From assembly GCA_947475225.1 (NCBI GenBank), contig CANJMQ010000011.1, positions 1 to 64,000 of the forward strand: a stretch of 64,000 bases of DNA, read 5' to 3'. The DNA comes from Bradyrhizobiaceae bacterium (lineage in GTDB: Bacteria; Pseudomonadota; Alphaproteobacteria; Rhizobiales; Aestuariivirgaceae). This document shows positions 1,209 through 17,090 of this stretch, in pieces. The notes beneath the pieces are model-generated. The model ran no database searches. It was not told the origin of the DNA and worked only from the letters and a program-made list of their open reading frames with translations. Numbering within the stretch: position 1 is the stretch's first letter; each line of letters begins with the position of its first letter. The position numbers and the translations under genes are program-made.

Positions 1209-2243
1209 TTGGCTGCCCAGGAGTCCCACTGGTTCGACCCGGCCCGTCACGCCGACCGCCGCCCCTTCCTGCTGGCCAGGAACCGTATCGTGGCGGGTAT
1301 CCGCCAGTGGTTCGCCGAGCGCGACTTCGTGGAGGTGGACTGCGCCGCGCTGGCCATTTCGCCTGGCAACGAGGCCCATCTCCATGCCTTTTCAACCGAA
1401 TTGATCCTGCCGGATGGCTCCACCGCGCGGCGCTACCTCCACACCTCGCCTGAATTCGCCGCCAAGAAGCTGCTGGCGGCTGGGGAAACCCGCATCTTCA
1501 ATCTCGGCCATGTGTGGCGGAACCGCGAGCGGACGCTGACCCATTCGCCTGAATTCACCATGCTCGAATGGTACCGGGCGCGGGAGGATTACGAGATCAT
1601 CATCGCCGATACGCTGGCGCTCGTGCAGCTCGCCGCACAGGTGGCGGGCACGCGCCAGTTCCGCTGGCGCGGCCGCGCGGCCGATCCCTTCGCCGGGGCG
1701 GAGTGGCTCACCGTGAATGATGCCTTCAAGGCCCACGCCGGGGTGGATCTGCTCGCGACGCTGAAGCCGGATGGCACGGCCGACGCGCAAGCACTGGCCG
1801 CCGTCTCGCCCGTGGCCTTCGGCGCGGGTGAGAGCTGGTCGGATATCTTCAGCCGCATCCTGTCGGAGAAGGTGGAGCCGCAGCTCGGCAACGGCCGCAT
1901 GACGGTTCTCTATGAGTATCCATCCGTCGAAGCGGCCCTGGCGCGCACCACGGCGCGCGACAGCCGCGTGGCGGAGCGCTTCGAGCTCTATGCCTGCGGT
2001 GTGGAGCTGGCCAACGGCTTCGGTGAGTTGACCGATCCGGAAGAGCAGCGCCGCCGCTTCATCGCCGAGATGGACGTGAAGGAACAGGTCTATGGCGAGC
2101 GCTATCCGATCGACGAGGAACTGCTGGAGGCGCTGGCAATCATGCCGCCCGCCTCGGGCGTTGCCCTCGGCCTCGACCGGCTGGTGATGCTGGCCTCGGG
2201 CGCCACGCGCATCGACCAGGTGCTGTGGACGCCGGTCGTGTGA
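1209..2243 (+). CDS. epmA: EF-P (R)-beta-lysine ligase EpmA (PoxA/GenX)
   Basis: A 344-residue paralogue of the lysyl-tRNA synthetase catalytic domain without the anticodon-binding domain, as expected for EpmA. Class II motif 2 is visible near residues 97-125 ([13 protein letters not shown], then [13 protein letters not shown]). Motif 3, [12 protein letters not shown], is near the C terminus. The family ligates beta-lysine to EF-P. The TTG start at 1209 is chosen because AGGAGA lies about 9 bases upstream and the product then has the usual length. The substrate gene efp is divergent next door. The partner mutase EpmB is not visible in this window. Confidence 0.9.
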
Positions 2244-3402: not shown

Positions 3403-4455
3403 TCAGCGCACCATCAGCGCCCAGTAGTCGAGCTCCAGGATCACGCCGGGCTTGTCCGGCGTGCCGTCCTCCACCGGAAATTCCGCACACGGAACATCCC
3501 GCGTGGCGCGCGTCACGATGCGCAGCGCGCCGACGTCGCTGCGCCCCGGAAGTTCTGCAGTCTCGATGATCTCCGACCACGCGAACACCGTGCCGCCGGC
3601 GAACAGTGGCGCCACATGGCGGCCGCCGTTGATGGCGGCGATGTGGAAGGCATTGGCGAGCCCGTTGAAGCTCAGGGCGCGCGCCAGCGAGATGACGTGG
3701 CCGCCATAGATCAGCCTGCGGCCGAAGCGCCCCTGCGCCTCCGAATGCTGGTTGAAATGCACCTTGGCGGTGTTCTGGAAGAGGCGCGTGGCGATCTGAT
3801 GCTCGGCCTCCTCCACCGTCATGCCATCCACATGGTCGATCTTCTCGCCCGCCGCATAATCCTTGAAGCGATGGGTGGAACCGGCAAGGCCGTCATCCCA
3901 GTTCCTCGCGTCGATCAGCGGGCAGGCGCGGCCCAGTTCGGCGAGGTCCACGCGCTTCGGCAGCGTCGGCACAACGGCCTCCGGCGCAGGGGCCTTCTCG
4001 TCGCGCTTTCTCACCATCACCCAGCGCACATAGGAGAGCACCTCTTCGCCCCGCTGGTTGGTGCCGACCGAGCGCATATAGACGGTGCCGGTCTTGGCCG
4101 TGGAATTCTCCTTGAGGCCGATCACCTCGGACACGGTCGAGAGCGTATCGCCGGGATAGACCGGTTTGAGGAACCGGCAATCGGCATAACCGAGATTTGC
4201 CACCGCATTGAGCGAGATATCCGGCACCGTCTTGCCGAAGACCACGTGGAAGGTGAGCAGGTCATCAATCGGCGCCTGCGGGTAGCCCACCGCCTTGGCG
4301 AAGGCATCGGATGACTGCACGGCAAAGCGCGAGCCATAGAGCGCGGTGTAGAGCGCCACATCGCCCACCGTCACCGTGCGCGGTGTGGCATGGCGGATCT
4401 TCTGGCCGAGGCGGAAGTCCTCGAAATAATTGCCGGTGTTGGTCTTGATGCTCAC
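3403..4455 (-). CDS. mch: Mesaconyl-CoA hydratase (beta-methylmalyl-CoA dehydratase), MaoC type
   Basis: A 350-residue double-hotdog MaoC-like protein. The N-terminal half (NYFEDFRLGQKIRHATPRTV, then DDLLTFHVVFGKTVPDISLN) and the C-terminal half (DHVDGMTVEEAEHQIATRLF, then YGGHVISLARALSFNGLANA) closely follow Rhodobacter-type mesaconyl-CoA hydratase as I know it. That enzyme hydrates mesaconyl-C1-CoA to beta-methylmalyl-CoA in the ethylmalonyl-CoA pathway of acetyl-CoA assimilation. The GTG start at 4455 overlaps the TGA of mcl2 (GTGA), so the two are translationally coupled. An itaconate- or methylaspartate-type hydratase is a less likely alternative. Confidence 0.85.
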   Translation of the reverse strand: MSIKTNTGNYFEDFRLGQKIRHATPRTVTVGDVALYTALYGSRFAVQSSDAFAKAVGYPQAPIDDLLTFHVVFGKTVPDISLNAVANLGYADCRFLKPVYPGDTLSTVSEVIGLKENSTAKTGTVYMRSVGTNQRGEEVLSYVRWVMVRKRDEKAPAPEAVVPTLPKRVDLAELGRACPLIDARNWDDGLAGSTHRFKDYAAGEKIDHVDGMTVEEAEHQIATRLFQNTAKVHFNQHSEAQGRFGRRLIYGGHVISLARALSFNGLANAFHIAAINGGRHVAPLFAGGTVFAWSEIIETAELPGRSDVGALRIVTRATRDVPCAEFPVEDGTPDKPGVILELDYWALMVR

Positions 4456-5312
4456 GAAATTGCCTCCGCAATGGCCGCCATGCGTTCTGCCATGGCAAGG
4501 TGCAGGCGTTCCACCATCTTGCCGTCGACCGTGATGACGCCCTTCGCCGCATTCTCCGGCAGCTGGAAGGCCTCGATGATCCTGCGCGCCCAGGCCACCT
4601 CTTCAGGCGCCGGCGAGAACATCTCGTTGCAGGCGGCGATCTGGCCGGGGTGGATCAGCGTCTTGCCGTCCATGCCCAGCGTGCGGCCCTGCTCGCATTC
4701 GGCACGGAAGCCCTGTTCGTCACGGAAGTCGTTGTAGACGCCGTCGATCACGTCGAGGCCATAGGCGCGGGCGGCCAGCAGCGTCATCGACAGCCACGGC
4801 AGAATGGCGAAGCGCCCGCCGGTGGCCAGTGCGCGCGATTCCTTCAGCAGGTCATTGGTGCCCAGCACGAAGCAGGAGAGACGCGCCACCTGGTGCACCG
4901 AGGCGATCTCGCGCACGTTGAAGATGGCCATGGGCGTTTCCATCATCGCCCACATGCGGGTCTTCTCGGCCCCGCCCATGCCGACATGGATCTTCGAGAC
5001 ATTCACGATGTCGCCGGGGCGGGCGACCTTCGGCACCAGGATGGCATCGGGGTTCACCTCCGCCGCCATCTTCAGGTCTTCCACGCCCCACGGCGTGTCG
5101 AGGCCGTTGATGCGGATGACGAGCTCGCGCCGGCCGAAGCCCCCGGCCTTCACGGCGGCTGCCACCTTGGCGCGGGCCTCGGACTTGGCGTCGGGGGCGA
5201 CCGAATCCTCGAGGTCGAGGATCAGCGAATCGGCGTCGAGGGACTTTGCCTTCTCGAGGGCGCGCTCATTGGCGCCGGGCATGTAGAGGACGCTGCGTCT
5301 GGCTCTGAACAT
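4452..5312 (-). CDS. mcl2: CitE-like malyl-CoA thioesterase / beta-methylmalyl-CoA lyase family protein (Mcl2-like)
   Basis: A 286-residue HpcH/HpaI aldolase/citrate lyase beta family protein. It begins MFRARRSVLYMPGANERALE and contains LILDLEDSVAPDAK, METPMAIFN and the C-terminal FRDEQGFRAECEQGR block. This resembles Mcl2, the (3S)-malyl-CoA thioesterase of the ethylmalonyl-CoA pathway, more than Mcl1 lyase, although lyase activity cannot be excluded. The ATG at 5312 is used because upstream sequence in this frame is non-coding in character and GAGACGGAAAAGACAAG precedes it. It overlaps mch by GTGA and is divergent from the oxidase operon. Confidence 0.8.
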   Translation of the reverse strand: MFRARRSVLYMPGANERALEKAKSLDADSLILDLEDSVAPDAKSEARAKVAAAVKAGGFGRRELVIRINGLDTPWGVEDLKMAAEVNPDAILVPKVARPGDIVNVSKIHVGMGGAEKTRMWAMMETPMAIFNVREIASVHQVARLSCFVLGTNDLLKESRALATGGRFAILPWLSMTLLAARAYGLDVIDGVYNDFRDEQGFRAECEQGRTLGMDGKTLIHPGQIAACNEMFSPAPEEVAWARRIIEAFQLPENAAKGVITVDGKMVERLHLAMAERMAAIAEAIS

Positions 5313-5429: not shown

Positions 5430-6614
5430 ATGTCCGCTCCCATGAAAACATATGATGTCGTGATCGTGGGCGGCGGCGTGGTGGGCAGCGCCAGCGCCCA
5501 TTACCTGCGTAAAAACGGCTTTACAGGCTCCATCGCCCTGGTCGAGAAGGACACGAGCTGGGCGCAGGGCTGCACCGCCCGGTCGGTCGGGGGCTTGCGC
5601 CAGCAGTTTTCGACGCCCGAGAACATCCATCTTTCGAAGTTCGGGGTGGCGCTGGTCAAGACCCTGAAGCAGGAGTTCGGGCCGGATGCCGACGTCGGCT
5701 TCAAGGAGCAGGGCTATCTCATTTGTGCAACGCCCGAGGGCCTGCCCGTCCTCGAAGAGAATCACGCCGTCCAGATCGCCAACGGCGCCGACAACGTGCT
5801 GCTGCGTGGTGACGCGTTGGCCGCGCGCTTTCCCTGGCTGGTGACGGACGGGATCGCGGCGGCCTGCTTCGGCCTCTCGGGCGAGGGTTGGGTGGACCCC
5901 TACATGTTCGCCGCGCTGTTCCGGAAATCCGCCATCGCCCGGGGCGTCGAGCTGATCCAGGACGAGGTGACGGGTGTCACCCGCCAGGGCGGCCGCATCA
6001 CCGGCGTCACGCTGGCGTCTGGTGAAGCCATCGCCTGCGGCACGCTGGTCAATGCGGCGGGCACGGGAGCGGGCAAGCTCGCCGCCATGGCAGGGATCGA
6101 GCTGCCGGTGGGCCCGCGCAAGCGCTATGTCTATGTGCTCGATTGCCCGGCCGCCACCGAGGCGCTGCACAAGGCCCCGCTCACCGTCATTCCCGGCGGC
6201 GTCTATTTCCGCCCCGAGGGCCGCAACTTCCTCGCCGGTCTTTCACCCGAGGAGCATCAGGAGCCGGACAATCTCGACTGGGAGGTCGACCACGCCTGGT
6301 TCGAGGACAACATATGGCCAGCACTCGCCGAGCGCATTCCGCTGTTCGAGGCGATCAAGGTCACCAGCGCCTGGGTGGGGCACTATGACTACAATGCGCT
6401 GGACCAGAACGCGGTGATCGGCCCGCATCCGGAGGTCGCCAACTTCCTCTTTGCCAACGGCTTCTCAGGCCACGGCTTGCAGCAGGGCCCGGCGGCGGGC
6501 AACGCGATTTCCGAACTCGTCATCGATGGGGGGTACAAGACCATCGACCTGGCGCGTTTCGGCTATGACCGCATCCGCAACAAGGCGCCGCTGTTCGAGA
6601 AGAACGTCATCTGA
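5430..6614 (+). CDS. FAD-dependent amino-acid/amine oxidase (DAO family)
   Basis: About 394 residues from the ATG at 5430 (a second ATG at 5442 is equally possible). The N terminus carries the dinucleotide-binding motif VVIVGGGVVGSASAHYL and the C terminus the DAO-family block FANGFSGHGLQQGPAAGNAI. Members related to sarcosine or glycine oxidase and dimethylglycine dehydrogenase oxidise the C-N bond of amino acids or N-methyl amines. There is no folate-binding GcvT-like domain. It heads a coupled operon: its TGA and the pdxY ATG share one base. With FolD and a PLP dehydratase downstream, an N-methylated or simple amino acid substrate is plausible, but this is inference. Confidence 0.82.
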   Translation: MSAPMKTYDVVIVGGGVVGSASAHYLRKNGFTGSIALVEKDTSWAQGCTARSVGGLRQQFSTPENIHLSKFGVALVKTLKQEFGPDADVGFKEQGYLICATPEGLPVLEENHAVQIANGADNVLLRGDALAARFPWLVTDGIAAACFGLSGEGWVDPYMFAALFRKSAIARGVELIQDEVTGVTRQGGRITGVTLASGEAIACGTLVNAAGTGAGKLAAMAGIELPVGPRKRYVYVLDCPAATEALHKAPLTVIPGGVYFRPEGRNFLAGLSPEEHQEPDNLDWEVDHAWFEDNIWPALAERIPLFEAIKVTSAWVGHYDYNALDQNAVIGPHPEVANFLFANGFSGHGLQQGPAAGNAISELVIDGGYKTIDLARFGYDRIRNKAPLFEKNVI

Positions 6615-7381
6615 TGAAGGTCTTGAGCATCTCCAGCCAGGTCGTCTGGGGCCCCGTCGGCAATTCTGCGGCCGTTCCGGCCCTTCAGGCGAAGGGCTAC
6701 GAGGTGCTGGCACTGCCCACCATCACGCTGTCGAATCATCCGGGCCATGGCGCACCGGCGGGCTTCCGCACGCAGGCCGAGGACATGGCGCGCATGTTTG
6801 CAGCGCTTGAAGCACTGGGCGCGCTTCACAACCTCGACGCCATGCTCACCGGCTACTTCGCGACGACAGGCCAGGTGGAAGAGGTGGCCGGGCTTCTTGG
6901 CCGTGTTGCCGTGCCCTATCTGCTGGTCGATCCGGTGATGGGTGACCACGGCAGGCTCTACATCCCGCAGGAGGTGGCCGAAGCCATCCGCGCCCATCTG
7001 GTGCCGCGCGCCAGCTGCCTCACGCCGAACGCCTTCGAGCTTGCATGGCTGTCAGGCCATGATGTGACGGACGAGGCGAGCGCCATCGCCGCCGCGCGCT
7101 CACTCTCACTCCCTGAAGTGCTCGCCACCTCCGTTCCATCGCGTGATGGCCTCGCCACGCTGTTGGTAACGCCCGATGAGGTTCACAGTATTGTCGCGCC
7201 GAAGCTCGACAAGGTGCCGAATGGCACGGGTGATTTCCTCAGCGGCCTTTATCTCGCCGAACGCCTCGAGCACGCGCCGCAGCAGGCATTCGCGGCGGCG
7301 ATGAAGACCTTGTCCCGCGCCATTGCCCTCAGCACCGGCATCACGGTGCTGAACGTGGCGGGCGCGCTGCACGGATCATGA
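6614..7381 (+). CDS. pdxY: Pyridoxal kinase PdxY/PdxK
   Basis: A 255-residue ribokinase-superfamily protein. It begins MKVLSISSQVVWGPVGNSAA, the PLP-salvage kinase N terminus. It contains LVDPVMGDHGRLY (phosphate/metal region) and DKVPNGTGDFLSGL, the GTGD anion-hole motif with the catalytic Asp. It phosphorylates pyridoxal for PLP salvage. The start shares a base with the stop of the oxidase (TGATG), and the end overlaps the DUF429 gene by ATGA. Supplying PLP fits the PLP-dependent dehydratase at the end of the operon. Confidence 0.9.
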   Translation: MKVLSISSQVVWGPVGNSAAVPALQAKGYEVLALPTITLSNHPGHGAPAGFRTQAEDMARMFAALEALGALHNLDAMLTGYFATTGQVEEVAGLLGRVAVPYLLVDPVMGDHGRLYIPQEVAEAIRAHLVPRASCLTPNAFELAWLSGHDVTDEASAIAAARSLSLPEVLATSVPSRDGLATLLVTPDEVHSIVAPKLDKVPNGTGDFLSGLYLAERLEHAPQQAFAAAMKTLSRAIALSTGITVLNVAGALHGS

Positions 7382-8079
7382 CGCCTGTCGTCGGCGTCGA
7401 TGGCTGCCGCGGCGGCTGGATCGCCGTGCACTGGGCAGAGACCGTCTCCCATCATCTCTGCCGCAGCTTCGCGGAGGTTCTCGCGATGGATGCGGCGGTC
7501 ATCGCCGTCGACATGCCCATCGGCTTTCCGCAGGGATCGGGCCGCGCCGCCGAGCGCGAGGTGCGGCAGCGGCTGGGTGAGCGGCAGTCGAGCGTCTTTT
7601 CGGTGCCCTCGCGCGCCGCCGTGATGTGCACTGACTATCGCCAGTCCTGTGCGGCCAATCTCGCCAATTCCGATCCGCCGAAAAAAGTCTCGAAGCAGAT
7701 CTTCCACATCTTCCCCAAGATGCGTGAGATCGATGCGCTCATCACGCCCACGTTGCAGACGCGCATCGTCGAGGTCCACCCGGAACTGGCCTTCTGGGTA
7801 ATGAACGGCGAAGCACCGCTGCCGCTGCCCAAGAAGGTGAAGGGCAGTCCGCATCCGCCCGGCCTCGAACTGCGCCAAGCGCTTCTCGCGGCGGCCGGCT
7901 TCCCGCTCGCCACCCTTCAGCCCGCAACCTACCGCCGTACCGACGTCGGTGCCGACGATCTCCTTGACGCCTGTGCCTGCGCGTGGAGCGCCCGGCGCAT
8001 CCATGAGGGGCGCGCCGTCCGCTTCCCGGCCGATCCGCCGCTCGATGCAAGGGGCTTGCGCATGGCGATCACGGCGTGA
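7378..8079 (+). CDS. DUF429 domain-containing protein
   Basis: A 233-residue protein with the DUF429 pattern: GVDGCRGGWIAV at the N terminus, AVDMPIGFP near residue 43, then the family block with SVFSVPSRAAV. The fold is predicted to be RNase H-like, with acidic residues at positions equivalent to the nuclease site (Asp8, Asp44). Its substrate and biological role are unknown. The ATG overlaps the pdxY stop (ATGA), and folD starts about 33 bases downstream. Confidence 0.85.
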   Translation: MTPVVGVDGCRGGWIAVHWAETVSHHLCRSFAEVLAMDAAVIAVDMPIGFPQGSGRAAEREVRQRLGERQSSVFSVPSRAAVMCTDYRQSCAANLANSDPPKKVSKQIFHIFPKMREIDALITPTLQTRIVEVHPELAFWVMNGEAPLPLPKKVKGSPHPPGLELRQALLAAAGFPLATLQPATYRRTDVGADDLLDACACAWSARRIHEGRAVRFPADPPLDARGLRMAITA

Positions 8080-8112
8080 GAAAGAGACGCCCAAGCCAGG
8101 AAAGTGCCGACA

Positions 8113-9051
8113 ATGACCGTCCAGACCGCAGTCCGTCACAATGCCTTGCTGGGCAAGCCCGTTGCCGAGGAAATCACCCGCAGCGTCTATCAGGGCGTGG
8201 AGGACCTTGCCTCCAAGGGCTGGTCGGTGAAGCTCGTCTCCATCACCATCGGCGATGTTGCCGCCGTCAACCTCTATGTCCGCAACCAGGCGCGCGGCGC
8301 GGACAAGGCCGGCATCATGTTCGAGGAGCGACATCTGCCCGCGACTGTCTCTCGCGTCGAGATGCTGGCCATGCTGCAGGCGCTGAATACCGATCCGCGC
8401 GTCACCGGCGTCATCATCCAGCGCCCCGTCCCGAAGCATCTCGACATCCGCGAGCTGCAGACTGCCGTCCACCCGTTGAAGGACGTGGAAGGCATGCACC
8501 CGGCGTCGATCGGCAACATCGTCTACAGCGACACCTCGCTCGCCCCCTGCACGGCGGCGGCCTCGGTCGAGTTGCTGAAGCGCACCGGCCTCAAGCTTGA
8601 AGGTCTCGAAGTGGTGGTGATCGGCCACTCGGAAATTGTCGGCAAGCCCATCGCCTTCCTGCTGATGGCCGAAGGTGCAACGGTCACCGTCTGCCATCAC
8701 ATGACCAGGAACCTCGCCGTCCACTCGCGCGCCGCGGATGCGATCTTCGTCGCTGTCGGCAGGCCGCGCTTCATCACGCCCAACATGATCAAGCCGGGCT
8801 CCGCCGTCATCGACATCGGCATCAACCAGATCGAGGAGAACGGCAAGAATATCACCGTGGGCGACGTGGACTATGAGGCCTGCGCGGAGACGGCGGGCTG
8901 GATCACGCCCGTGCCGGGCGGCGTCGGTCCCGTCACCGTGGCCATTCTCATGCGCAATGCCTTGACTGCGGCGCAGGCCCAGAAGCGCTATTACGACCAG
9001 GTGTTCGGCGGCAAATCGGACACCTTGGTCAGCGTGGCGCCCGCCGCATGA
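8113..9051 (+). CDS. folD: FolD-like methylenetetrahydrofolate dehydrogenase, divergent paralogue
   Basis: A 312-residue protein from the ATG at 8113, which has AGGAAA 9 bases upstream; a GTG at 8104 lies too close to that site. The FolD fold is clear from GHSEIVGKPIAFLL (NADP loop) and TPVPGGVGPVTVAIL at the C terminus. Key positions differ from FolD. The YVxxK motif is YVRNQ (codon CAG, Gln59), KDVDG is KDVEG, and the usual PCTPxG is PCTAAA. In human FolD, Lys56 at this position is needed for cyclohydrolase activity, so this protein may be dehydrogenase-only or act on another pterin. It overlaps the dehydratase gene by ATGA. Confidence 0.82.
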   Translation: MTVQTAVRHNALLGKPVAEEITRSVYQGVEDLASKGWSVKLVSITIGDVAAVNLYVRNQARGADKAGIMFEERHLPATVSRVEMLAMLQALNTDPRVTGVIIQRPVPKHLDIRELQTAVHPLKDVEGMHPASIGNIVYSDTSLAPCTAAASVELLKRTGLKLEGLEVVVIGHSEIVGKPIAFLLMAEGATVTVCHHMTRNLAVHSRAADAIFVAVGRPRFITPNMIKPGSAVIDIGINQIEENGKNITVGDVDYEACAETAGWITPVPGGVGPVTVAILMRNALTAAQAQKRYYDQVFGGKSDTLVSVAPAA

Positions 9052-9980
9052 TCACGCGAGAGGCCATCACCCGCGCCGCAGCGCGCATCACCAATCACGT
9101 GCGCCGCACGCCCGTCGTCAGCGTGACGGTCGAGGGCGTCGAACTCCCGGTCACGCTCAAGCTCGAGCTGCTGCAGCATGCCGGCAGCTTCAAGTCGCGC
9201 GGCGCCTTCAACACGCTGCTGCAGGCCAGTGTCGGGCCGGGTGGTGTTGCCACGGCGTCCGGTGGCAATCATGGCGCGGCGGTGGCCTATGCATCCAGGC
9301 AGCTTGGTCATCGCGCCAAGATCTTCGTTCCTGAAATCTCCTCACCCGCCAAGGTCGCCCGCATCGCCTCCTATGGCGCCGAGGTGGTGCAGAGGGGTGC
9401 GAATTATTCCGAGGCGCTGGCGTTGTGCGAAGCCTGGGTCGCTGAGAGCGGCGCCACCGGCGTCCACGCCTATGACGCCGAAGCAACGCTCGAAGGACAG
9501 GGTACGCTGGGCCGCGAGCTGGAAGCGCAGGCGCCGGGGCTCGACACGCTGCTGGTCGCGGTGGGGGGTGGCGGTCTCATCGGCGGCATCGCCGCGTGGT
9601 ACCAGTCCGGCGTGAAGATCGTGGGCGTCGAACCTCAGACCTGCAACACGCTGCATGCGGCAATCGCGGCGGGCGAACGCGTGGCGGTCAGGCCCTCGGG
9701 GCTGGCCACCGATTCGCTCGGCGCCAGCACGGTGGGCAAGCTGATGTTCGAGATCGCCAAGGATCACATCGCGCAGGTGACGCTCATCTCCGACGACGAC
9801 ATCCGCAATGCCCAGCGCCACCTGTGGCGAGAGATGCAGCTGGTCACCGAGCCAGGCGGTGCCGCCGCCTTCGCGGCTCTTCTCTCGGGCGCCTACAAGC
9901 CGGAGAAGGACGAGCGCATTGGCGTGGTGGTCTGCGGCGCCAACACCTCGATGGATGTCTTCGGCCAGCTCTTCATCTGA
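9048..9980 (+). CDS. PLP-dependent threonine/serine dehydratase or racemase family protein
   Basis: A 310-residue fold type II PLP enzyme. The Schiff-base lysine is in GSFKSRGAFN (about residue 48), the substrate loop is ASGGNHGAA, and the phosphate-binding glycine loop is VGGGGLIGG. There is no ACT regulatory domain, so it resembles catabolic threonine/serine dehydratase, serine racemase or hydroxyaspartate dehydratase rather than biosynthetic IlvA. It is the last gene of the operon, coupled to folD by ATGA. Its stop overlaps the converging amine oxidase by 8 bases. Confidence 0.85.
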   Translation: MITREAITRAAARITNHVRRTPVVSVTVEGVELPVTLKLELLQHAGSFKSRGAFNTLLQASVGPGGVATASGGNHGAAVAYASRQLGHRAKIFVPEISSPAKVARIASYGAEVVQRGANYSEALALCEAWVAESGATGVHAYDAEATLEGQGTLGRELEAQAPGLDTLLVAVGGGGLIGGIAAWYQSGVKIVGVEPQTCNTLHAAIAAGERVAVRPSGLATDSLGASTVGKLMFEIAKDHIAQVTLISDDDIRNAQRHLWREMQLVTEPGGAAAFAALLSGAYKPEKDERIGVVVCGANTSMDVFGQLFI

Positions 9981-11797: not shown

Positions 11798-13015
11798 TCA
11801 GCGGGTGAACTGCGCCACGATCTCCACATGCGATGACCATTTGAACTGGTCCACCGCCGTGACCTTGTTCAGCGCGTAGCCGCCACCCACCAGAATCTCG
11901 GCATCACGCGCAAATGTCGCGGCGTCGCAGGACACGGCCACCACCGTCTTCACCTTGCTGCGCGCCAGTTGCCTGGCCTGTGCCTCGGCACCGGCGCGCG
12001 GCGGGTCGAAGACCACGGCGTCGAGTTCCTTCATCTCGTTCGGCACCAACGGCTCGCGGAACAGGTCGCGCGCCGCGGCGGTGATGGGTTTCAAGCCTGA
12101 AGTTACCTTTGCCGCCGCGTTCAGCGCGGCGATTGCCGCGCGGTCATTGTCATAGGCCTCGACGCGGGCGCGCTCGGCGATCCTGAAGGCGAAGGGGCCG
12201 ATACCGCAGAACAGGTCCGCCACACTCTTCGATTTGCCCAGCGCCTCGATCACCAGCCGCGCCAGCGTTTCCTCGCCCAGGGCTGTCGCCTGCAGGAAGC
12301 CGCCGGGCGGCAGCGCCACGCTGGCCTTGCCGATCTGCATCCGTGGCGGCACGGCTGTGGCGATCACCTCGCCATTCACGCTGAGACGCGCGAGATTGAG
12401 GTCCCGCACGAAGCTTGCGAGCTTGGCGTGCTCGGCCTGCGCGAACTTGCGCTCGGCGCGCACACTCACGTCAAGCCCGGTCTGCGTCGACGTCACTGCC
12501 ACGTCGCAGTCGGAGAGCTTGGCGCCGATGGCCCGGCCCATGTCGAAGGCGCGCGCCATGTCGGGTTCGAGAATGGGGCAGCTGGCGATGTCGAGCAGCG
12601 TATGGGTTCGCGCCTCCATGAAGCCTGCCGTGACCACGCCGTCCCTCTTGCGCACATGCAGGCTGGCCCGGCGGCGGCCTGCGCCATGCGCGTCGATGAT
12701 GCCGCTGATCTCGGAGGGCAGGCCGCGTGCCTTCAGCTGTTCGGACACCAACGAGGCTTTCCACGCGCGGTAGGGCTCTTCGCGCCAGTGCTGCAGCTGG
12801 CAGCCGCCACATCGGCCGTAGTAGGCGCAGAACGGCGTCACGCGGTCCGGCGACGCCCGCTCGATGGCGATGAGCGCGAGGCGGTCACCATCGCCCGCCG
12901 CCGTCACCTTTTCGTTCGGCAGTGTGCCCGGCACGAAGACGGTGCGGTCATCGAGCCGCGCCACACCTTCGCCGCGTCGGCCCATGCCCTCGATGTTCAG
13001 CTCAGCCTCAGACAT
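11798..13015 (-). CDS. Class I SAM-dependent RNA methyltransferase, TrmA/RlmD family
   Basis: About 405 residues from the ATG at 13015. An N-terminal TRAM-like segment (GMGRRGEGVARLDDRTVFV) is followed by a cysteine cluster CAYYGRCGGC plus a later Cys (ASCPILEP), the 4Fe-4S pattern of the 5-methyluridine methyltransferases. The SAM site is VADLFCGIGPFA, the substrate motif FDPPRAG, and the catalytic cysteine VAVSCDAATFARD. These enzymes methylate uridine C5 in rRNA or tRNA; the target cannot be assigned. The start overlaps the end of thiamine diphosphokinase by 8 bases. Confidence 0.87.
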   Translation of the reverse strand: MSEAELNIEGMGRRGEGVARLDDRTVFVPGTLPNEKVTAAGDGDRLALIAIERASPDRVTPFCAYYGRCGGCQLQHWREEPYRAWKASLVSEQLKARGLPSEISGIIDAHGAGRRRASLHVRKRDGVVTAGFMEARTHTLLDIASCPILEPDMARAFDMGRAIGAKLSDCDVAVTSTQTGLDVSVRAERKFAQAEHAKLASFVRDLNLARLSVNGEVIATAVPPRMQIGKASVALPPGGFLQATALGEETLARLVIEALGKSKSVADLFCGIGPFAFRIAERARVEAYDNDRAAIAALNAAAKVTSGLKPITAAARDLFREPLVPNEMKELDAVVFDPPRAGAEAQARQLARSKVKTVVAVSCDAATFARDAEILVGGGYALNKVTAVDQFKWSSHVEIVAQFTR

Positions 13016-13649
13016 CGGCGGCCTGCGGCGGATAGGCGATAACGATGCCATGACCGCCCCTCACTGAAATCTCCACAGGTCCAAGCGCCACGTTGGACAG
13101 CGTGAGGGTGGAGCCAACAGGAACGTCGCGGCTGGTGAGAGGCCATTTCACGCCCGCGAGGTCCAGCCCCTGAAGATCCGTGAACGGAATGATGCTGAGG
13201 CGCGTCTCCGCCGGAAGGTCGACATGAAGATGGCCTGCGATCAGCGGCCAGGCCTCCTCCACGCCGCTGGTCAGCAGGCAGGCAATGCCATCGCGCGCAA
13301 TGCGGATGCTCTGGCCGAGCAGGCCCACCGTGTGGTCGGTCTGCCCGCCCAGACCGCCGAGCAGGATGATCTCCGTCGCCCCCCGCCGGATCGCCTCGGC
13401 AACCGCGATGGCGCCGTCGGTCACGTCCTTCTCTGGTGGAAAGGTTTCGCGCGGTACGTCGCGGTATTGCATGGTGAGTTCCGACCCGGCGCTGTCGAAG
13501 TCCCCCACCCAGAGTTCGGGCACGGCATTGAGGGCTGCGGCATGCATCATGCCGCTGTCGGCGGCGATGAGGCGTGCGCCCCGGATCTGGGACTTGAGCC
13601 GCGGCGTCACCGTCAGGTCGCCGCCGAGCAGGATTGCAAAACGTGTCAT
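13008..13649 (-). CDS. Thiamine diphosphokinase
   Basis: A 213-residue protein with ADSGMMHAAAL (substrate Asp), the conserved VGDFDS motif, the PPEKDVTDGAIAVAEAI block and the LGGLGGQTDHTVG signature. It pyrophosphorylates thiamine to TPP in the cytosol. It is divergent from the TPP riboswitch and thiBPQ uptake operon, so imported thiamine would be activated by its neighbour. The riboswitch is not upstream of this gene. The 3' end overlaps the RNA methyltransferase start. Confidence 0.9.
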   Translation of the reverse strand: MTRFAILLGGDLTVTPRLKSQIRGARLIAADSGMMHAAALNAVPELWVGDFDSAGSELTMQYRDVPRETFPPEKDVTDGAIAVAEAIRRGATEIILLGGLGGQTDHTVGLLGQSIRIARDGIACLLTSGVEEAWPLIAGHLHVDLPAETRLSIIPFTDLQGLDLAGVKWPLTSRDVPVGSTLTLSNVALGPVEISVRGGHGIVIAYPPQAADV

Positions 13650-13859: not shown

Positions 13860-14855
13860 ATGAAGAAGACAACTACAGCCCTGTTCGCGCTCCTCACGCT
13901 CACTGCTCCCGCGATGGCGAAGGATACGCTTACCATCTACACCTATGACAGCTTCGTCGCCGAGTGGGGACCCGGCCCCAAGGTAAAGGAAGCCTTCGAG
14001 AAGACCTGCGACTGCACCATCGAATGGGTGGCGCCGGGCGATGCCGTGGCCATGCTCAACCGCCTGAAGCTCGAGGGCAAGAACACCAAGGCCGACGTGG
14101 TGCTTGGGCTTGATACCAACCTCACCACCGAAGCGGTGAAGACCGGCCTGTTCGCCAAGCATGGCCTTGACGTGAGCCAGGCGAAGACGCCCGTTGCGTG
14201 GACGGATGAATACTTCATGCCCTTCGACTATGGCTATTTCGCCGTGGTCTATGACAGCCAGACCCTGAAGGATCCGCCCAAGTCGCTGGACGAGCTGGTC
14301 AACGGCGATCCTTCCCAGAAGATTGTGCTGGAAGATCCGCGCTCCTCCACGCCGGGCCTCGGCTTCCTCCTGTGGATGAAGCAGGTCTATGGCGACAAGG
14401 CAGCGGATGCCTGGAAGAAGCTGGAGCCGCGCATCCTCACCGTGGCGCCCGGCTGGTCCGAGGCCTATGCGCTGTTCACCAAGGGCGAGGCGCCGATGGT
14501 GCTGTCCTACACCACGTCTCCCGCCTACCACGTGATCGCCGAGAACACCGACCGCTACAAGGCCGCCGCCTTCGCGGAAGGCCATTACATGCAGGTGGAA
14601 GTCGGTGGCCTCGTCGAAGGCAGCCAGCACAGGGAGCTGGCGCAGAAGTTCCTCTCCTTCATGATGCAGCCCGGCTTCCAGGACCAGATTCCGACCAACA
14701 ACTGGATGTTCCCGGCGGGTGCCATCTCTGCCCCGTTGCCCGCGGCTTTCGACCAGCTGGTGAAGCCTTCCAAGACGCTGCTCTATTCGCCGGACGAGGT
14801 GGACCAGAACCGCCGCGCCTGGATCGACGAGTGGCTGAACGCCACGGCCAAGTGA
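13860..14855 (+). CDS. thiB: Thiamine ABC transporter substrate-binding protein
   Basis: A 331-residue periplasmic protein. Residues 1-20 are a Sec signal ending APAMA, followed by [20 protein letters not shown], the TbpA/ThiB start. Blocks [10 protein letters not shown] and [12 protein letters not shown] follow the family. The ATG at 13860 is 5 bases after GGAGG, which sits in the riboswitch hairpin. It delivers thiamine to ThiPQ and heads the operon. Confidence 0.93.
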
Positions 14856-14865
14856 CCGGGGCAAC

Positions 14866-16395
14866 GTGATCGCCTACCGACCATCGCGAGCGCCGGGTTA
14901 CGCGGCGCTCGCCCTTCTCGGCCTCGCCCTTGCGGCGGGTTTCCTCCCCGTGCTGCGCCTCGGCGCGGAGCAGGGGCTCTCCGGCCTTGATCCCTACGTC
15001 TTCCGCGTGCTGCGCTTCACGCTGCTGCAGGCCGGGCTGTCAACGATCCTGTCACTCGCGCTCGGCCTGCCGCTGGCCCGCGCGCTGGCGCGGCAATCCG
15101 CCTTTCCCGGCCGCGCACTGCTGCTCAGGCTCCTCAATCTGCCGCTGGCACTGCCGGCCATTGTTGTTATCATCAGCATCATCGAGGTCTATGGCGCGAA
15201 GGGCTGGCTCGGTGGCATCTTCGATATCTATGGCCTGCAGGGCATCCTGCTTGCACATGTCTTCTTCAACGTGCCGCTCGCCGCGCGCCTGATCCTTTCG
15301 GACCTCGAGCGCATTCCGGCTGAAAGCTGGAAGCTCGCGGCCCAGCTGGACCTTCCTTCACTCGCCATCTGGCGACTTGTCGAATGGCCGGCGGTCAGGA
15401 GCGGCATCGCGGGTGCGGCACTCCTCATCTTCCTGCTCTGCGCGTCAAGCTTCGCTGTGGTGCTCACCTTGGGTGGTGGTCCGCGCGCCACCACGCTGGA
15501 GGTGGCGATCTACCAGTCGCTGCGCTCTGATTTCGATCCGCAGCGCGCCGCCATGCTGGCGCTGGTGCAGCTGGCGCTCTGCGCCACGCTGGCGCTCGTC
15601 GCGCAGGCCTGGGGCGGGCTCGGCGTCAGCTGGCCGGCGCTCCGCCTGCAGCCGAAGCGCTATGACGGCCAGTCCGCCATGGCGCGGCTCGTCGATGGCG
15701 GCGTGGTGCTGCTGGCGCTTCTGCTGCTCGTGCCGCCGCTGGTGGCGCTCGTCGCGGCGGGGCTGTTCCACATCATGCCTTCGGCCCTTCTGCTGCGCGC
15801 CCTGCTGACCAGCCTCGCGCTGGGCTCTGCCAGTGCTGCGCTCGCCTTCGCCGTCACCTGGCCTCTCGCTGCCTTGGCGGTGCGCAGCGGCGCATGGCGG
15901 AAGATCGCTTCCATCGCCGTGCTCACCTCGTGGATCGTGCCGCCTGCCGCGCTGGCCACCGGCTGGTTCATCAGCCTCATCGCCTATGCGGGTCTTTCAG
16001 GGCTTGCGGCTTTCCTGGTCATCGCCATGAATGCGCTGATGTCGCTGCCCTTCGTCGCCCGCGTGCTGATGCCTGCGCTTGCCCAGTCGGCGGAGGCGCA
16101 TGACCAGCTGTGCCTCAGCCTCGGCCTCTCTGGCTGGAGCCGCTTCCGGCTGGTGGAGCTGCCGGTCATGAAGCGGGCGATCGGCCTCAGCCTCATCATG
16201 GCGCTGATCCTGTCATTGGGTGACCTCACCGCCATCTCGCTGTTCGGCACGCAAGGTTTCGTGACGCTTCCGGCGCTGATCTACCGCCAGATGGGCAGCT
16301 ACCGCTTCGACGAGGCGATCGGCACCGCGCTGGTGCTGAGCGCCCTGGTGCTCGCCTTCTCCACCCTCGCCGAGCGCTGGAGCGACCAGCGATGA
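14866..16395 (+). CDS. thiP: Thiamine/thiamine pyrophosphate ABC transporter permease
   Basis: A 509-residue inner-membrane protein made of two homologous permease halves, each with about six transmembrane segments. Each half carries an EAA-type loop that contacts the ATPase: one around PAESWKLAAQLDLPSLAIWR, the other around EAHDQLCLSLGLSGWSRFR. The fused two-half architecture is typical of ThiP. The GTG start at 14866 is 10 bases after the thiB stop. The 3' end overlaps thiQ by ATGA. Confidence 0.92.
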   Translation: MIAYRPSRAPGYAALALLGLALAAGFLPVLRLGAEQGLSGLDPYVFRVLRFTLLQAGLSTILSLALGLPLARALARQSAFPGRALLLRLLNLPLALPAIVVIISIIEVYGAKGWLGGIFDIYGLQGILLAHVFFNVPLAARLILSDLERIPAESWKLAAQLDLPSLAIWRLVEWPAVRSGIAGAALLIFLLCASSFAVVLTLGGGPRATTLEVAIYQSLRSDFDPQRAAMLALVQLALCATLALVAQAWGGLGVSWPALRLQPKRYDGQSAMARLVDGGVVLLALLLLVPPLVALVAAGLFHIMPSALLLRALLTSLALGSASAALAFAVTWPLAALAVRSGAWRKIASIAVLTSWIVPPAALATGWFISLIAYAGLSGLAAFLVIAMNALMSLPFVARVLMPALAQSAEAHDQLCLSLGLSGWSRFRLVELPVMKRAIGLSLIMALILSLGDLTAISLFGTQGFVTLPALIYRQMGSYRFDEAIGTALVLSALVLAFSTLAERWSDQR

Positions 16396-17090
16396 TCCGC
16401 CTCGAGCACGTGAGCTTCCGCTACGAAGAGATGGAGATGCGCTTCGATGCGCAATTCCCCACCGCCTCCTTCACGGCGGTGATCGGCCCCTCAGGCGGCG
16501 GCAAGTCCACGCTCCTGAACCTCATCGCGGGTTTCGAGGTGCCGGAGAACGGCCGTGTGCTGATCGACGAGACCGACGTCACCACGCTGCCGCCCGATCA
16601 GCGCCCGGTGAGCATGATCTTCCAGGACAACAACGTCTTTGCGCATCTTGACCTGTGGCAGAACGTGGCGCTGGGCATCGCACCCTCGCTTAGGCTCGAT
16701 GCCACACAGAAGGCCCGCGTCGATGCAGCGCTCGCCGAGGTGGGCCTCGCCGCGCTCGCCCACCGCAAACCCGGCGAGGTCTCGGGTGGCGAGCGCCAGC
16801 GCGTCGCCGTGGCCCGTGCCCTGGTGCGCGATCGGCCCGTGCTGCTGCTGGACGAGCCCTTCGCCGCCCTCGGCCCCGCGCTCAGGCGCGACATGCTGGA
16901 CCTCGTGAAAACTATGAGCCAGGCGCGCCATCTCACCACCGTCATGGTGACCCACCAGCCGGAGGACGCGCTCGCCGCCGCCAGCCACACCGCCTATCTC
17001 GAAACCGGCCGCATCGTTGCATTGCGCCCCACGGCGGAGCTGTTTGCCGCCAAGGACCTGCCGGGGCTGAGAGCGTATCTCGGTGACTGA
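16392..17090 (+). CDS. thiQ: Thiamine ABC transporter ATP-binding protein
   Basis: A 232-residue ABC ATPase with Walker A GPSGGGKST, Q-loop region MIFQDNNVFAHL, signature VSGGERQRVAVARAL, Walker B VLLLDEPFAALG and the switch His in MVTHQ. It powers ThiBP thiamine uptake at the inner membrane. The ATG overlaps the thiP stop (ATGA). A short inverted repeat follows the stop at about 17104-17136. Confidence 0.93.
   Translation: MIRLEHVSFRYEEMEMRFDAQFPTASFTAVIGPSGGGKSTLLNLIAGFEVPENGRVLIDETDVTTLPPDQRPVSMIFQDNNVFAHLDLWQNVALGIAPSLRLDATQKARVDAALAEVGLAALAHRKPGEVSGGERQRVAVARALVRDRPVLLLDEPFAALGPALRRDMLDLVKTMSQARHLTTVMVTHQPEDALAAASHTAYLETGRIVALRPTAELFAAKDLPGLRAYLGD

Follow-up and report, generated by a model that had tools for sequence, protein, structure and literature searches.

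A FolD subfamily with glutamine in place of the active-site lysine, a probable dehydrogenase-biased partner of canonical FolD

RESULTS

Gene content of the locus

The window (the whole stretch of 64,000 nucleotides analyzed here) harbors a FolD-like open reading frame on the plus strand at 8104-9051. The preliminary description had placed the gene at 8104-9051, where the frame opens with a GTG; the frame itself stands, but because an AGGAAAG stretch is located about 8 bases upstream of ATG 8113, translation likely starts at this ATG, which would yield a protein of 312 residues (Table 1). Glutamine occupies the position of the lysine in the YxxxK motif of canonical FolD, and proteins with the two residues are hereafter referred to as Q-type and K-type FolD, respectively. 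Both Pfam domains of the window protein exceed their cut-offs (PF00763, 97.4 bits; PF02882, 201.4 bits), and the protein scores below the cut-off of every NCBIfam model among the 25 matches listed. Its AF2 model (mean pLDDT, 90.9; pTM, 0.88) was matched by Foldseek to FolD/MTHFD structures with TM-scores by target of up to 0.95, and a K-type FolD that was also modeled is predicted to have the same fold.

Table 1. Genes and residue-level features in and around the Q-type folD gene of the window
Feature	Position	Strand	Basis or remark
EpmA (EF-P lysine aminoacylase)-like gene	1209-2243		Over genX cut-off
MaoC/mesaconyl-CoA-hydratase-like and CitE/HpcH-like C-C lyase genes	Within 3403-5312	-	Below NCBIfam equivalog cut-offs
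FAD-dependent amine/amino-acid oxidase-like gene	5433-6614	+	DAO; weak sarcosine-oxidase-beta match
Pyridoxal-kinase-like (PdxY-like) gene	6614-7381	+	Below NCBIfam cut-off
DUF429 protein gene, upstream in the same gene run	7378-8079	+	Pfam
Q-type FolD paralogue, 312 residues (likely start)	8113-9051 (stop, 9049-9051)	+	ORF; Pfam PF00763 and PF02882; conserved clade
CAG, Gln59 replacing the YxxxK lysine (YVRNQ; human Lys56, E. coli Lys54)	8287-8289	+	Alignment
CGC, Arg104 replacing Leu (human Leu101)	8422-8424	+	Alignment
KDVEG, with Glu126 (GAA, 8488-8490) replacing the pterin-binding Asp (human Asp125)	8479-8493	+	Alignment
PCTAAA replacing PCTPxG	8545-8562	+	Alignment
His172 in GHSEIVG, replacing Arg of the cofactor motif GRSxxVG	8626-8628	+	Alignment
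His196 in CHHMT, replacing Ser on the cofactor side (presumably human Ser197)	8698-8700	+	Alignment
Serine/threonine dehydratase-like gene (4-bp overlap with the FolD stop)	9048-9980	+	PRK08246 over cut-off
Thiamine diphosphokinase gene	13008-13649	-	
ThiB-like binding protein gene	About 13869-14855	+	
ThiP-like permease gene	14866-16395		Below cut-off
ABC ATPase gene beside the thiamine genes	16392-17090		

Several neighbors recur in the 81 Q-type loci, the window included in each count: the PdxY-like gene in 14, and the amine-oxidase-like and serine/threonine dehydratase-like genes in 12 each. Relatives of the MaoC-like and CitE-like genes likewise lie near Q-type FolD genes in other loci, and their products might act on glyoxylate or on a C5 acid. 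The window Q-type gene adjoins neither the gene for Fhs (formate-THF ligase) nor a K-type folD gene, and the same is true in its genus; the local role of the protein in its own organism is therefore less certain.

Residues fixed in Q-type FolD

The replacement of the cyclohydrolase lysine by glutamine, as well as the KDVEG and PCTAAA motifs, all of which had been pointed out in the preliminary description, were confirmed. The glutamine aligns with the lysine of YVANK in a second, canonical FolD of the same genome (contig C33, locus L002; 43% identity), which reads KDVDG and PCTPTG at the other two motifs, so that the existence of a canonical copy elsewhere in the genome, a point raised earlier, is now established. 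In an alignment of 80 sequences, consisting of the window protein and 79 of the best 80 of 530 relatives obtained by a scan of genome contigs, Gln59 and Glu126 are present in all 80, which places the glutamine far beyond chance or sequencing error; the second motif reads KD(V/L)EG throughout. One locus outside this alignment (L005) was checked separately and also encodes Gln.

Residues were then compared between 81 Q-type and 51 K-type sequences aligned together. Position 59 is Gln in 81/81 Q-type and Lys in 51/51 K-type sequences, and position 126 is Glu in 81/81 and Asp in 51/51, respectively. Arg104 is found in every Q-type sequence, whereas the K-type sequences have Leu (46/51), Phe (3), Met (1), or Ser (1). 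The Pro and Gly of PCTPxG, invariant in the 51 K-type sequences, are replaced by Ala148 (77/81, with Ser in the remaining 4) and Ala150 (81/81). On the cofactor side, His172 and His196 are both present in 81/81 Q-type sequences, against Arg in 49 and Ser in 48, respectively, of the 51 K-type sequences. Arg104, His172, and His196 are three fixed changes beyond those of the preliminary description, which likewise did not include the paired operons of other bacteria described below. The two histidines, at sites aligned with human Arg173 and, in a numbering that is partly our assumption, Ser197, suggest by alignment that Q-type FolD has a different coenzyme preference, perhaps for NAD+.

Other parts of the active site are retained, including the PGGVGP loop. 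In the alignment of 80 sequences (the window protein and 79 relatives), Tyr55 and Gln103 (human Tyr52 and Gln100) are conserved in 80/80, as are Gly269 (80/80) and Gly272 (79/80), which we take to correspond to human Gly273 and Gly276. Seven key residues have been described for human FolD, namely, Tyr52, Lys56, Gln100, Leu101, Asp125, Gly273, and Gly276 (PMC3368264), and the equivalents of three of the seven (Lys56, Leu101, and Asp125) are replaced throughout the Q-type proteins. Use of NADP+ or NAD+ has been linked to Ser197 versus Arg233 (PMC9173628).

Clade, selection, and distribution

Q-type and K-type sequences fall on opposite sides of one branch with an SH-aLRT value of 100 in a tree of 70 of the 135 available rows, three plasmid rows having been added, which was built by the "quick" method and leaves out 48 of the 81 Q-type and 17 of the 51 K-type rows (L102, L104 to L108, L111, L142, L143, and eight others). 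The K-type rows all come from genomes examined here and are not a sample of FolDs at large. The Q-type rows in the tree are from Pseudomonadota, with others from Verrucomicrobiota, Kiritimatiellota (Pontiellaceae), and a SAR324 bacterium. Within the window's family and the genomes behind named records, the identity of full-length matches to the window protein is either 60 to 100% or 38 to 45%, with none in between. The Q-type proteins are one clade, and the glutamine marks a fixed subfamily rather than an isolated substitution.

Two individual cases were noted. G024, a member of the window's family with a 44% match, also encodes an 83-residue fragment (C99:7-258) that is 61% identical to residues 206 to 288 of the window protein. 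The Q-type sequence of G003 (L100/L161) branches with two Rhodobacterales plasmid Q-types and not with those of its own family, as if it had been transferred.

The dN/dS ratios between the window gene and six relatives, estimated by the method of Nei and Gojobori, are about 0.05 to 0.18, with dS above 1 in three of the pairs; a seventh pair was saturated. The Q-type gene is under purifying selection, which makes a pseudogene unlikely. Q-type genes are present in 19 of 60 genomes of the window's GTDB family, in 15 of 398 genomes of a phylum sample (the 14 besides that of the window being confirmed by their residues), and in 32 of 248 genomes of a further family (f17). We read f17 as Rhodobacterales-like because the trimethylamine-oxide demethylase (Tdm) and formate dehydrogenase of one of its members, G492, are about 97% identical to proteins of Ponticoccus alexandrii.

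A canonical FolD nearly always accompanies the Q-type

Of 36 Q-type genomes behind named records, 35 were covered by the search (all but that of L044); each of the 35 encodes at least one K-type FolD, and the 41 K-type places in these genomes all read YxxxK. Of the 19 Q-type genomes in the window's family, 18 have a K-type FolD as well; no canonical FolD was found in the remaining one, G003, which is 89% complete. K-type FolD is present in 29 of 31 Q-type genomes of f17, with 22 checked by residues and 7 assigned by at least 64% identity to a K-type. In the other two, G492 and G637, where the search gave no K-type, the contig of the Q-type gene opens within the terminal part of a K-type-like folD located directly upstream. 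G492 additionally encodes the initial 51 residues of a K-type-like FolD, behind Fhs, at two further contig ends; these remnants are partial pieces without the lysine position. Each of the two Fhs copies of G492 precedes the same 51-residue FolD start (L297, L299, and L300), an arrangement suggestive of a duplicated fhs-folD region. Ruegeria pomeroyi is described as having two nearly identical copies of fhs (PMC4744692).

These counts indicate that a Q-type FolD is nearly always additional to a canonical one. A survey of the family describes most bacteria as having only one FolD (PMC11064299).

Gene runs in other bacteria

Evidence for operons comes from the Rhodobacterales-like family f17, which was examined after the first set of loci. 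Its 31 loci, all Q-type, represent 30 of the 32 Q-type genomes (G623 and G672 were left out) and one genome from the phylum sample. In 22 of the 31 loci, the immediate neighbor of the Q-type gene on the same strand is a K-type folD, and Fhs adjoins 21 of these 22 tandem pairs in the order Fhs-Q-K or Fhs-K-Q; for the remaining pair (L278), no Fhs was present in the stretch fetched. Some f17 loci, tandem or not, additionally carry genes for formate dehydrogenase, Tdm, or a type III glutamine-synthetase-like protein. The last, for which the query protein is named type III glutamate-ammonia ligase by NCBIfam, is read here as a putative gamma-glutamylmethylamide synthetase. On plasmid p-SCP4 of Ponticoccus alexandrii, the order is formate dehydrogenase, Fhs, folD(K), folD(Q), and tdm, followed by serine-cycle genes.

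The spacing of the paired genes bears on the idea that the Q-type protein is mainly a partner subunit, forming a heterodimer with the K-type that alters flux, channeling, or coenzyme use. FolD is a dimer, and the two types share a predicted fold. Of 23 pairs (the 22 of f17 and that of Ponticoccus, where folD(K) and folD(Q) overlap by 4 bp), 17 have a candidate gap or overlap of no more than 25 bp, four have a larger one, and two have no start candidate. Such close spacing would fit a heterodimer, but the window's organism and the majority of the 35 genomes searched behind named records carry the two genes at distant sites or on separate contigs, and we regard a role mainly as a partner subunit as quite unlikely.

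Outside f17, the setting of the Q-type gene varies. In Verrucomicrobiota and Pontiellaceae it is found near genes for Fhs, MetF-like and methyl-THF methyltransferase-like proteins, and a formate transporter; in Pelagibius and its kin, near N-methylglutamate-pathway-like genes; and in SAR324, near genes for a GcvT-domain oxidase and a glycine-betaine-monooxygenase-like protein. For the first set of loci, the flanking stretches retrieved show C1 genes no more commonly beside Q-type than beside K-type folD (17/81 versus 8/40 loci, or 7 in one count), in a tally that used an E value of 1e-25 and 40% coverage and that counts a 28% GMAS match. Methylated-amine loci are also served by a K-type FolD alone, as in Paracoccus aminophilus, where a K-type folD lies between sarcosine oxidase genes and purU.

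Partner enzymes and the C1 carrier

Searches for Fhs, FchA, Mch, and the alpha family of sarcosine oxidase covered 80 of 95 genomes, 53 of the 80 having a Q-type FolD; the 15 left out include one Q-type genome (G029). FchA was found in just 1 of these 80 genomes and in 0 of 17 genomes of a further set, and it was not found in the genome of the window, which is 87.8% complete. FchA is accordingly not supported as the partner cyclohydrolase. With one exception, K-type FolD was the sole known cyclohydrolase to turn up alongside the Q-type in the genomes searched for FchA. Two candidate markers of the Q-type proved uninformative, as Fhs alone is present in 76/80 genomes and the sarcosine-oxidase alpha family in 72/80, with or without a Q-type. 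No Fhs was found in G637, so that an Fhs route cannot be assumed there. In G037, a 99% complete genome of the window's genus, neither FolD nor Fhs was matched, which may reflect an assembly gap or a different way of making 10-formyl-THF.

The same searches address whether the Q-type protein might oxidize a different C1 substrate or act on another pterin carrier, as the preliminary description had put forward. Two pterin-pocket residues are changed throughout the subfamily (Asp125 to Glu and Leu101 to Arg), as one might expect of an altered substrate. Taken as methanopterin, however, the other pterin is not supported, since the marker Mch was found in only 1 of 80 genomes and not in that of the window. 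The retention of Tyr55, Gln103, and the PGGVGP loop, together with the fact that the partners in the gene runs are folate enzymes, also argues against a change of substrate, which we judge very unlikely.

DISCUSSION

Proposed function of Q-type FolD

Canonical FolD oxidizes methylene-THF to methenyl-THF and then hydrolyzes the latter to 10-formyl-THF. With moderate confidence, we propose that the Q-type protein is a dehydrogenase-biased FolD that works together with a canonical FolD in folate-linked C1 oxidation. It would oxidize 5,10-methylene-THF to methenyl-THF with little or no cyclohydrolase activity, the direction of the reaction presumably being oxidative; the canonical lysine-containing FolD of the same cell would hydrolyze methenyl-THF to 10-formyl-THF, from which Fhs or another enzyme could release formate. 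The pair would in this way divide the two activities of a bifunctional FolD and serve catabolic C1 flow from demethylations. In Ruegeria pomeroyi, fhs is reported to be required if the choline methyl groups are to be oxidized completely (PMC4744692), and on the simplest reading the Q-type would dehydrogenate and the K-type would hydrolyze within such an Fhs route.

Published work implicates the lysine in the dehydrogenase as well as the cyclohydrolase step of FolD, with proton transfer or acid-base catalysis suggested for the hydrolysis (PMC3368264, PMC3338484). E. coli FolD K54N is reported to keep about 19% of its dehydrogenase activity with undetectable cyclohydrolase, which is also undetectable upon deletion of K54-R55; methenyl-THF hydrolysis can be spontaneous, according to the same authors (PMC5688156). 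The silkworm MTHFD variant K53A, in contrast, is reported to have near-wild-type cyclohydrolase (kcat/Km of 0.097 versus 0.13; PMC6443876), so that absence of the lysine is by itself no proof that this activity is lost. A dehydrogenase-only enzyme, the first of the functions offered in the preliminary description, would thus fit the change fixed in the clade, the canonical FolD elsewhere in the genome, and the E. coli K54N variant, with the silkworm variant pointing the other way. The supporting result cited at the time for human K56Q was not found in our literature search, in which the sole paper listed with "K56Q" (PMC7439476) concerns, by its title, a formate dehydrogenase of gas-fermenting bacteria. 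Silkworm Asp120Ala, at the Asp125 position, loses measurable turnover of methylene-THF (PMC6443876), and by analogy the change from Asp to Glu at position 126 might affect the dehydrogenase as well.

The Q-type protein would still be bifunctional if the lysine were dispensable in this scaffold, or if Arg104, beside the conserved Gln103, supplied the charge. Arg104 is fixed together with Gln59 in 81/81 sequences, but Arg is a poor general base. The silkworm variant is consistent with a dispensable lysine, and two RefSeq plasmid records annotate Q-type proteins as bifunctional, presumably by homology. The two E. coli variants lacking detectable cyclohydrolase speak against it, and the canonical FolD retained in nearly every genome, often in an adjacent position, would be redundant. 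We therefore consider a fully bifunctional Q-type protein rather unlikely.

The E. coli K54N variant raises a further possibility, as its residual dehydrogenase is insensitive to carolacton, a myxobacterial natural product that binds through the lysine (PMC5688156): Q-type FolD might be an inhibitor-insensitive bypass. What the Q-type genes are linked to is C1 genes, with no biosynthetic or resistance context noticed at the loci viewed, and such a bypass would leave several of the other fixed changes unexplained; we regard it as highly improbable.

Returning to the dehydrogenase-biased reading, a more specific form of it can be put forward tentatively. A bifunctional FolD would have been split once more into a Q-type dehydrogenase, perhaps using NAD+, and K-type hydrolysis, both co-encoded with Fhs in the Rhodobacterales-like family and perhaps forming a heterodimer. 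This raises the possibility of a C1-oxidation module that resembles MtdA plus FchA but is made from two FolD paralogues, a scheme that we consider possible though less than probable.

FolD is a textbook case of one active site catalyzing two reactions, and annotations assume both. A subfamily in which three of seven key residues are replaced, with a normal copy alongside and, in places, Fhs, provides a natural test of the role of the lysine, on which the published mutants disagree (E. coli K54N [PMC5688156] versus silkworm K53A [PMC6443876]). The subfamily bears on how Alphaproteobacteria oxidize methyl groups from methylated amines, and also on annotation, given the bifunctional label in the two RefSeq records. 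No description of it was found by title or start of abstract among the papers listed, at most 25 per search, in a literature search outside of which most subscription journals lie.

Comparison with known systems

Q-type FolD resembles bifunctional FolD/MTHFD in its two Pfam domains, its predicted fold, the active-site Tyr, the equivalent of Gln100, and the glycine loop. It differs in lacking the equivalents of Lys56, Leu101, and Asp125, in the changes at two cofactor-site residues and in PCTPxG, and in forming a separate clade. As a proposed dehydrogenase without cyclohydrolase, it would be functionally analogous to the monofunctional methylene-THF dehydrogenases, such as the NAD-dependent yeast Mtd1 and the enzyme of Peptostreptococcus productus. 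It is not close to yeast Mtd1 in sequence: 1edz, which we take to be the structure of Mtd1, is the weakest of 27 PDB matches (E value of 3.4e-9) and is aligned only over residues 12 to 192. Mtd1 is among the references cited by PMC11064299, and the P. productus enzyme is mentioned in PMC6443876.

Another functional parallel may be the pair MtdA and FchA of methylotrophs, in which Fch and MtdA act in sequence (PMC4543880), since dehydrogenase and cyclohydrolase would in both cases reside on two proteins. No MtdA or MtdB domain was detected in the window protein, in which the two FolD domains are the only matches at an E value of 1e-5 or better, and the FchA domain PF04961 (FTCD_C) gave no match at that threshold. 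In contrast to MtdA and FchA, both members of the Q-type/K-type pair have the FolD fold, and FchA is almost absent from these genomes. The second FolD of Arthrobacter sp. 31Y is similar in being, as described, a divergent paralogue encoded beside a separate cyclohydrolase in a C1 cluster; that partner, however, is a nonhomologous protein and not a FolD (PMC5023230), whereas the proposed partner of Q-type FolD is its own canonical paralogue.
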